A stretch of 64,000 nucleotides of DNA from Banduia mediterranea. GTDB taxonomy: Bacteria; Pseudomonadota; Gammaproteobacteria; Nevskiales; Nevskiaceae. Below the pieces are notes generated by a model, which saw nothing but the letters and a program-made list of their open reading frames with translations, was not told the origin of the DNA and did no database searches. The number at the start of each line of letters is the position of its first letter. Within the stretch, counting starts at the first letter, position 1. The stretch spans positions 62,001-126,000 of the forward strand of contig NZ_JAVRIC010000007.1 of the NCBI RefSeq assembly GCF_031846245.1, read 5' to 3'. Below, piece by piece: positions 460 through 53,109 of this stretch. A program made the position numbers and the translations under genes.

Positions 460-541
460 TTCGAGTCGACGTTTTCAGGCGGTATTGCAAAACGCCGCGA
501 GTATAAAGGAGCCTGCGGGGTGTCAGCCCTCGCAGCGCATT

Positions 542-582
542 CGCACCAAAATGATGCGCACGCCCAAGTTTGGGGCGTGCGC
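542..582. promoter_or_regulatory. NtrC-type dyad sites upstream of glnA
   Basis: Two dyads lie 45-85 bp upstream of the sigma-54 promoter. The first, GCACCAAAATGATGC (543-557), matches the NtrC enhancer pattern GCACC-N5-GGTGC with one arm mismatch. The second, at 556-582, is a longer palindrome with arms GCGCACGCCC and GGGCGTGCGC. Known NtrC enhancers sit upstream of glnA in enteric bacteria. Binding here is inferred from sequence. Confidence 0.65.
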
Positions 583-625
583 TGGCGCTGCAACGGCTCC
601 TGACGCATTCTGAGCACGCATACCG

Positions 626-35973: not shown

Positions 35974-36144
35974 TGCCGGACCGGCAATCCTTCAACGCTC
36001 GATAGTGCCGCCGTAGTACCCGTGCTTCTGGGACCTGAGTTATGCTTCGCGCCCGCCATGACGTCGGATTCATGGCGCGGCGTTAGCAAGGCGAGGAACC
36101 CGCCGTAGGTGAAGCCGCATGCTGCCGTTACAATGAAGCCCGAC

Positions 36145-36221
36145 GCGCCTGTAGCTCAGCTGGATAGAGTACTGCCCTCCGAAGGCAGGGGTCGCAGGTT
36201 CGAATCCTGCCAGGCGCGCCA
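36145..36221 (+). tRNA. tRNA-Arg (anticodon CCG)
   Basis: A 77-nt cloverleaf: acceptor arms GCGCCTG/CAGGCGC with G discriminator and encoded CCA, D-arm GTAGCTCAGCTGGATAGAGTA, anticodon stem CTGCC/GGCAG with CCG in the loop, and T-arm around GGTTCGAATCC. Reads CGG arginine codons. Downstream tandem repeats contain copies of its 3' end. Confidence 0.97.
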
Positions 36222-36503
36222 ATCAATCCAAGCTCGCAGTACCGTTCAAGGCGAGACGGCCTTCAAGGCTCGTATTCGAACCTGCGGCCCCAGAACAACG
36301 CATCGCCCGGCGATGGAAAGCGAAGCGAGCCATCGCGAGTTCGAATCCTGCCAGGCGCGCCAATCAATCCAAGCTCGCAGTACCGTTCAAGGCGAGACGG
36401 CCTCCAAGGCTCGTATTCGAACCTGCGACCCCAGAACAACGCATCGCCCGGCGATGGAAAGCGAAGCGAGCCATCGCGAGCTCGAATCCTCCCAGGCTCT
36501 CCA
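36222..36503 (+). repeat. Two 141-bp tandem repeats derived from the tRNA-Arg 3' end
   Basis: Units 36222-36362 and 36363-36503 are almost identical. Each ends with a copy of the tRNA 3' end: perfect over 24 nt in unit 1, with four mismatches in unit 2. Each also holds an inverted copy of the T-arm (36274-36291 and 36415-36432; ATTCGAACCTGCGACCCC in unit 2) and a GCGATGG/CCATCGC hairpin. The layout is like the rtT repeats after E. coli tyrT. The next 114 bp to the IS66 remnant hold nothing recognised. Confidence 0.9.
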
Positions 36504-36617
36504 ATCAATCACTTAGCAGATGCTGCCGTCTGAGCTTGTCCGTTTCTTATGCATTTTTTGGATGGCAAGCAATCAATCCGCAATAGCCTTCAGCAACGCA
36601 TCCTTCGCGTCGGGTAA

Positions 36618-37460
36618 CTACTCACCCGTTTCAGCGTAGAGCTGACCGGAAAGCGCGAGTTGGATAGCGATGAGGGGGTTGTATCCACGGTTGGCCATGG
36701 TCTGCAGGTAGCTGGAGATGCGGCAATAGGCTTGGGCGTACGCCCGGTTGCGGAAGCAACCGGAGACTTTCCGCTTGACCTTGCTCATGCGCAGCTCACG
36801 CTCGGCACGATTGTTGGTAAACGCGACATGAGACTCTTTGGCAAACAGCAGGACGGCGCTCTCATGGTCGCTCAGTCGTTCCCACAGCTTGTGGGCATCT
36901 GATTTGGCGATTCGGCCGCGCTTGCCGTTCTGCCGTGGGGGAATCGGCGGGAGTTCCTTGTCGCCCCGGGTCAGGATGTTGCGGTAGAGTTTCGGGAGTT
37001 TCGCGTATTCACGGCCGTTGAGCTTTTTCCGTTTGCGCCTGGAGACCACCGCGCAGGTCTGTTGCAGCAGGCGCTTGAGGTTTCTCGCCCAGGCGTAGCC
37101 GTCGGCGTCGGCGTCGGCGATGAAGGTGAGCTCCCGCAAGAGGTGCGCGCCGCACAGCCTGTGCCCGCAGTGGTCGTACGAGAAGTAGGAGGCCCAGCAG
37201 TCGTGGATCATGGCGCCGCCGTAGCACGGGATGACACCGATGTCCGCCATCGCTTCGAGCCCACGCTTGGGGTGCAGGAACTTCAAGACGTACTTGAGGA
37301 GCGTGCCCCGGAGATCGCGAGGCCAATCAGGGTCTGCTCGAGTTCGTGCTCGTCTTGGCGGTGTGCTTCTCCAGGAACACGGCCATCAGGAGCTTCAGGA
37401 GCATCAGCAGTGCCTCCACCAGGGCGCGGCCGCCGAGGTGGGTCTCTATGATGGCCGGCT
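36618..37460 (-). pseudogene. IS66-family transposase remnant (internal deletion and frameshift)
   Basis: The 222-codon frame 36618-37286 is the C-terminal part of an IS66 transposase (TnpC): HPKRGLEAMADIGVIP, the catalytic-Asp region MIHDCWASYFSY, CGAHLLREL, and the catalytic Glu in NNRAERELRMSKVK. A second frame further upstream (about 37330-37460) encodes the usual IS66 N-terminus, LVEALLMLLKLLMAVFLEK then HTAKTSTNSS, and stops. The zinc-finger region and first catalytic segment between them are missing. No intact tnpA/tnpB or clear terminal repeats are seen, so the element is dead. Confidence 0.85.
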
Positions 37461-53061: not shown

Positions 53062-53109
53062 AGGTCGAAGGTCGGGGTCAGGTCTAGGTCGAAGGTCGGG
53101 GTCAGGTCT
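53062..53109 (+). repeat. Two tandem 24-bp repeats
   Basis: Two identical direct copies of a 24-bp unit (53062-53085 and 53086-53109), each beginning AGGTCGAAGGTC and ending GGGTCAGGTCT. The second merges into the left inverted arm of the neighbouring RAYT remnant. Confidence 0.85.

Follow-up and report, generated by a model that had tools for sequence, protein, structure and literature searches.

A tandem array behind tRNA-Arg(CCG) that may belong to a recurrent class of rtT-like tRNA 3'-flank elements

The described system closest to the locus analysed here is rtT (RttR), a repeat in the tyrT operon of E. coli, which presumably gives rise to a stable RNA released from the tRNA transcript and contains the coding sequence of Tpr, presumably a small basic protein. 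To our knowledge, the rtT repeats of E. coli have so far stood alone and without an explanation. REP-like palindromic elements are short non-coding hairpins which are present in several copies per genome. Partial tRNA copies also occur at integrated elements, as described in an excerpt of PMC9897764. Within open-licence papers, no description of antisense T-arm copies in tRNA 3' repeats was recognised, the inverted copy of E. coli K-12 included.

The window, i.e. the whole stretch of 64 kb that was analysed, contains a single tRNA gene, which encodes tRNA-Arg(CCG) and is the sole Arg(CCG) gene among the 45 tRNAs of its genome (Table 1). It is followed by two head-to-tail units of 141 bp (36222–36362 and 36363–36503), confirming the tandem repeats which a first-pass annotation had placed there; Tandem Repeats Finder reports them at 36198–36510 with a period of 141, 2.2 copies, 96% matches and a score of 584, the highest of 11 rows in the window. 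In each unit, a spacer (trailer) comes first, next an 18-nt inverted copy covering variable loop and T arm, then a hairpin segment of 47 nt, and the unit ends with a repetition of the final 24 nt of the tRNA. Both the agreement of the unit ends with the tRNA tail and the presence of the inverted T-arm copy in every unit are as that annotation had described them. The inverted match of unit 1 scores 15, a value reached by none of 2000 dinucleotide shuffles of the unit (maximum 11). The duplicated part had been taken to end at the CCA of the tRNA; the tail copy stands, but this end does not, since the trailer start ATCAATC is also duplicated. As the array closes with a third trailer start, the duplication comprises the tail plus the trailer, with the antisense and hairpin parts lying between the copies.

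Table 1. tRNA-Arg(CCG) and the components of the array behind it, in positions of the window.
Feature	Position	Strand	Basis
tRNA-Arg(CCG)	36145–36221	+	ARAGORN; Rfam RF00005, 68.8 bits
Unit 1 spacer (trailer), 52 nt, begins ATCAATC	36222–36273	+	sequence
Unit 1 inverted copy of 36188–36205 (variable loop, T arm), 17/18 (1 mismatch)	36274–36291	-	sequence
Unit 1 hairpin segment, 47 nt; stems CATCGC/GCGATG and GCGATGG/CCATCGC	36292–36338	+	sequence, centroid fold
Unit 1 tRNA tail copy (last 24 nt), 24/24 (0 mismatches)	36339–36362	+	sequence
Unit 2 spacer, 52 nt, begins ATCAATC	36363–36414	+	sequence
Unit 2 inverted copy of 36188–36205, 18/18 (0 mismatches)	36415–36432	-	sequence
Unit 2 hairpin segment, equal to that of unit 1	36433–36479	+	sequence
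Unit 2 tRNA tail copy (last 24 nt), 20/24 (4 mismatches)	36480–36503	+	sequence
Third trailer copy, start only (ATCAATC); array end	36504–36510	+	Tandem Repeats Finder, sequence

No terminator-like site was found on the tRNA strand between 35900 and 36700, and the other strand of this region has three, where shuffles predict 0.6 on both strands together. As no terminator was found between the tRNA and the units, the latter would be transcribed within the pre-tRNA as a structured 3' trailer. The C-terminal part of an IS66-family transposase (36621–37286, minus strand; Pfam PF03050, E = 4.7e-21) begins about 110 bp past the array. Elsewhere in the window, positions 53062–53109 hold a perfect tandem pair with a 24-bp unit (100% matches, score 96).

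At E < 0.1, unit 1 matches its own genome (3.83 Mb, 97 contigs) only in the array, twice on contig 43, once on contig 35 and in the tRNA itself, and the unit matches are confined to places behind tRNAs or a tRNA remnant. Contig 43 carries tRNA-Tyr, tRNA-Gly and tRNA-Thr(GGT), the last of which is followed by two 130-bp units (2.5 copies according to Tandem Repeats Finder); their hairpin segment is identical to that of Arg(CCG) at 35 of 47 positions, and their antisense and tail parts match the local tRNA. The match on contig 35 (L055, about 460–620, minus strand) is one repeat unit that follows an Arg(CCT)-like tRNA remnant whose 5' half is degenerate; the remnant was recognised by our own reading of the sequence, and ARAGORN makes no call for it. 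A separate intact tRNA-Arg(CCT) is present in this genome (L240).

Among the 45 tRNAs of the genome, the inverted-copy score is 19 for Thr(GGT), 18 for Arg(CCG) and 18 for Ser(GCT), the module of which (L255) has its 18-nt inverted copy 46 nt downstream and no tail copy. The remainder score at most 10: Ser(CGA) (L261) has a weak inverted copy (score 10) together with an rtT-type direct tail copy of 19 nt, Tyr scores 10 only through its flank, which reaches into the Thr module, and all others score at most 9. The modules of Thr(GGT), Arg(CCG) and Ser(GCT) match their own tRNA best among the 45, by 1 to 3 points, and mismatched tRNA/flank pairs score at least 11 in 8 of 1760 cases, six of which come from the Gly(TCC) flank running into the Thr module. 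The inverted copy of Ser(CGA) matches Ser(GGA) better than its own tRNA, which counts against a fit to the own tRNA.

Conservation in close relatives, which the first-pass annotation had named as a check against a neutral duplication, is partial. A genome of the same genus (G001) has units behind Thr(GGT) (2.4 copies of 130 according to Tandem Repeats Finder) and one degenerate unit behind Arg(CCT), but the flank of its Arg(CCG) gene contains no module. In the family Nevskiaceae, where Thr(GGT) was matched in 56 of 58 genomes, 31 flanks were compared (30 of those loci plus that of G037, added as a known module carrier); a module is present in 11 of them (inverted score 15 to 26), distributed over 7 of 12 genera, and 20 are without it (score at most 8). 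The start of tufB can be placed behind 26 of the 31 loci, including 9 of the 11 with a module. Presence varies between related species, and even congeners differ at Thr(GGT), with a module in G048 and a 43-nt spacer instead in G050. The element is dispensable, as the near relatives G001 and G050 are without it at Arg(CCG) and Thr(GGT), respectively. In a set of 30 loci retrieved by means of the Arg(CCG) gene, modules occur in the genome of the window, G035 and G002, and in G011 at Arg(TCT).

At all 11 module-bearing Thr loci, the inverted copy matches its own tRNA above any different one, and the summed fit of 216 was reached in none of 20,000 permutations (mean 129, maximum 199). A stricter family pattern gave 9 matches in 6 of 85 genomes and none in the control; eight matches in five genomes were judged real from the sequence, and the ninth (G051:C256) was set aside. 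A loose pattern matched in 21 of 58 genomes, and these matches were judged from their sequences to be mostly due to chance; its reversed control also gave some hits. Hydrocarboniphaga and Stagnimonas, both Nevskiaceae, are included among the pattern matches listed. Repeated terminator-like hairpins and inverted T-arm pieces were also seen downstream of Ser(CGA) in G043 (L070) and Ser(TGA) in G039 (L050) of this family.

A common scan, which required an inverted score of at least 12 together with a direct copy of at least 12, detected 2 of 45 tRNAs in the genome of the window, 13 of 123 in the Nevskiaceae loci (not a fair sample, since Thr/Arg similarity was the basis of their retrieval), 10 of 29 in Haloarcula rara, 4 of 29 in H. 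japonica and none of 49 in other gammaproteobacteria (29 loci, 29 genomes), which gave one lone inverted copy; with the reversed probe, all five sets stayed below 12. At cut-offs 10 and 12, the Haloarcula figures are 14/29 and 5/29 tRNAs scanned (H. rara, H. japonica), each genome having 44 tRNAs, of which 29 were scanned. Strict patterns matched in 1 of 369 genomes of the class, which is the genome of the window itself, and in 0 of 398 of the phylum, figures that understate the class, as these patterns overlook the window's own array and rtT-type units. A broad pattern scan of contigs gave at least 120 stretches, mostly from haloarchaea, which are examples and not a measure of prevalence; further examples among the matches listed are from Holophagaceae, Geothrix, Xenophilus, Clostridia, Ruminococcaceae and an Actinomycetes MAG.

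The view that few loci of this kind are described thus has to be given up, as the layout or a variant of it recurs in Nevskiaceae, haloarchaea, Holophagaceae, Clostridia, Burkholderiales and an Actinomycetes MAG. Judged from these sequences, the array is not singular and is one case of a wider class. The inverted copy of haloarchaea mostly spans the region from the T loop to the acceptor, as against T arm to variable loop in bacteria; the haloarchaeal layout is thus a variant, which need not share its descent with the bacterial ones. In eight loci from other bacteria (L119, L122, L131, L169, L184, L189, L214 and L215), the module is located beyond an apparent intrinsic terminator, according to our own reading of the sequence, and it is thus not needed in the tRNA transcript.

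Joint folding of the tRNA and unit 1 gives −91.9 kcal/mol (z −3.09; 1 of 200 shuffles as good); by itself, unit 1 does not fold in an unusual way (z −0.24). In the best joint folds of 13 chosen module loci, which represent thermodynamics alone, without modification or order of synthesis, the 5' acceptor strand is predicted to pair with the distal tail at every one of the 13 loci and the inverted copy to pair with the tRNA at 12 of them, with a gain of 3.1 to 21.1 kcal/mol over separate folding. Among eight flanks lacking a module, the native acceptor pairing is retained in seven, and the remaining flank was classed as "other". The predicted strand swap may in part be a consequence of having copies at all. 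Changes in the inverted copies were scored against a perfect antisense as transitions keeping G-U, transitions breaking G-U and transversions. The Nevskiaceae and other proteobacterial loci of the relatives search have 10, 0 and 12, respectively, where 4 of the 12 transversions come from a neighbouring tRNA matched to a Thr module and the 10 versus 0 stands on three alignment positions, partly common by descent. The corresponding counts are 2, 0 and 1 in other bacteria, 1, 2 and 1 in Haloarcula and 0, 0 and 6 in E. coli, and the haloarchaea of the pattern scan show no bias towards keeping G-U (6, 8 and 21). The bacterial bias, which involves few independent changes, hints at pairing as RNA.

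GNA triloops and tandem sheared G-A pairs are known for their stability. Perfect hairpins with a 3-nt loop and a stem of at least 5 have the loop GNA in 16 cases, TNC in 1 and others in 14 among 101 module cores, many of which are interrelated and one of which, a Thr core, was counted again via its Gly neighbour; mononucleotide shuffles give 0.44, 0.32 and 5.26, respectively. At 105 haloarchaeal loci picked by a T-arm pattern, with one count per context, the motif C-GA-NN-GNA-nn-GA-G lies up to 250 nt behind a tRNA in 66 cases in sense and in 9 cases in antisense, and at other places in 39 cases. The H. rara loci, which were not so picked, have 19 in sense, 3 antisense and 13 elsewhere, and the tRNA loci of the genome of the window 2, 0 and 0; the window's own hairpin has no exact match to this motif. 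Such a bias between the strands suggests a single-stranded state, be it RNA or displaced DNA. A hairpin alignment from three species, in which a single pair differs in both partners and five others are each disrupted in one sequence, weakly supports the structure.

The reading preferred here, in which our confidence falls slightly short of even, is that the array belongs to a recurrent, clade-enriched class of rtT-like tRNA 3'-flank elements that are born at the DNA level and transcribed in the pre-tRNA. A probable birth and turnover at the DNA level is supported, because the trailer is duplicated, related species are without the module and kindred hairpins are found at several tRNAs. DNA events at a tRNA gene would duplicate the tail and trailer and place an antisense-plus-hairpin segment where the copies join; via the common T-loop sequence, the hairpin would spread between tRNA loci. 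In the transcript, the antisense copy would capture the proximal T arm and the distal tail would pair with the 5' acceptor strand, a fold that may compete with the native tRNA or remain a fallback. A tRNA normally folds before its trailer is made, which counts against such a swap. Processing could release a unit-sized RNA, as we presume for rtT. Any function of the transcript is putative; a candidate small RNA from the array, as the first-pass annotation had suggested, is plausible, and the putative role as an RNase P decoy, also suggested there, has no specific support.

A wider reading, which we put forward as a rather unlikely one, takes these loci as an unnamed tRNA-linked element of bacteria and archaea, in which a strand-specific hairpin, flanked by an antisense T arm on one side and a spare tail on the other, would move from tRNA to tRNA, have its ends rewritten per host tRNA and give the precursor an alternative 3' end, rtT being one worn example. 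If this were true, the element could be a parasite specific to tRNAs, or it could serve to control the dosage of individual tRNA genes. Apart from this wider reading, the layout of antisense T arm, GNA-loop hairpin and tail copy can be searched for; variants of it occur in two domains of life, and it is matched to its own tRNA. Its origin and function are testable by a comparison of species that carry the module at one single-copy tRNA gene with relatives lacking it there.

The strong rival, possible yet held with little confidence, is a neutral mutational scar, in which template switching in replication at the near-palindromic T loop (TTCGAA) produces both the inverted and the direct copies, slippage multiplies them and correction between inverted arms keeps the likeness to the tRNA, without any function. 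The joint duplication of trailer and tail, the turnover of presence between species and the lack of a G-U bias in haloarchaea agree with it. Template switching between inverted repeats homogenises their arms, according to an excerpt of PMC8604942, and this alone would make inverted copies follow their tRNA. However, the scar predicts neither the kindred hairpins that follow several tRNAs of a genome, nor strand-biased loops, nor a concentration in some clades (0/49 in the class sample; 1/369 and 0/398 genomes by strict patterns).

A weaker and doubtful rival is a minimal mobile element or integration scar, in which small circles with the tRNA tail as their core would be inserted by a recombinase that acts at the T loop, and repeated insertion in tandem would lead to the array. 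The direct copies start within the T loop and restore the tail of the tRNA, in the manner of the tRNA-gene integrases of an excerpt of PMC8371274, partial tRNA copies are known at integrated elements from that of PMC9897764, and kindred hairpins are present at several tRNAs. However, the unit has no match in 72,556 plasmid or 50,697 phage records (blastn, word 11, E 0.001), and the antisense part agrees with the tRNA at each locus, a match that a circle arriving from elsewhere would not supply. Pfam searches of five translated ORFs around the array gave an IS66 transposase, a Kdo transferase and three without a match, with no integrase among the five. As for the suggestion that the repeats mark past integrations, plain scars leave the inverted copy and the hairpin unexplained, and tRNA fragments behind tRNA genes need not mark integrated elements. 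That the repeat encodes a repetitive protein is very improbable: the period of 141 is divisible by three and the array is indeed open on both strands (ORFs of 135 aa on the plus and 81 aa on the minus strand), as had been reported, but the Thr(GGT) arrays of both species (own genome and G001) have a period of 130, which breaks the frame, neither ORF has a Pfam match and the plus-strand ORF passes through the tRNA gene.

Returning to the preferred reading of an rtT-like class, the earlier interpretation of the locus is partly supported overall, and the element can be set beside the known systems. Like the attL/attR sites of integrative elements at tRNA genes, as they are described in the excerpts of PMC9897764 and PMC8371274, the array has partial copies of the tRNA 3' end beside an intact gene, but its units are about 100–140 bp and not a gene-carrying element, contain an antisense tRNA copy and a hairpin, and have no phage or plasmid match. 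Like REP-like elements, the modules are short non-coding hairpins in several genomic copies, but in their own genome they are matched (E < 0.1) only in tRNA 3' flanks and not at scattered intergenic sites, and their ends vary with the tRNA.

The likeness to tyrT/rtT of E. coli that had been proposed holds for the layout, as tandem units in both cases directly follow a tRNA and each ends in a copy of the tRNA 3' end; GNA-loop hairpins are a further feature which rtT shares with the module class. In the tyrV flank of K-12 (NC_000913.3), the site of the RttR repeats, the best inverted tRNA match is a degenerate T-arm copy of 22 nt with three mismatches, compared with 17/18 and 18/18 here, and the direct tail copy is the last 19 nt. 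The array differs in following Arg(CCG) instead of Tyr, in its 141-bp unit, in a tail copy of 24 nt instead of 19 and in its perfect or near-perfect antisense. K-12 has an annotated tpr, whereas the ORFs of the array have no Pfam match and kindred arrays have a period of 130, which leaves no counterpart of Tpr. At the Rfam gathering threshold, cmscan found the tRNA alone in the window and no rtT, and up to E 5 the region 36000–36700 gave only the tRNA and a sub-threshold antisense match of the tRNA to Plastid-ycf2. By the tests made, the array is thus outside the Rfam rtT family, and, being laid out like rtT, it may work alike.
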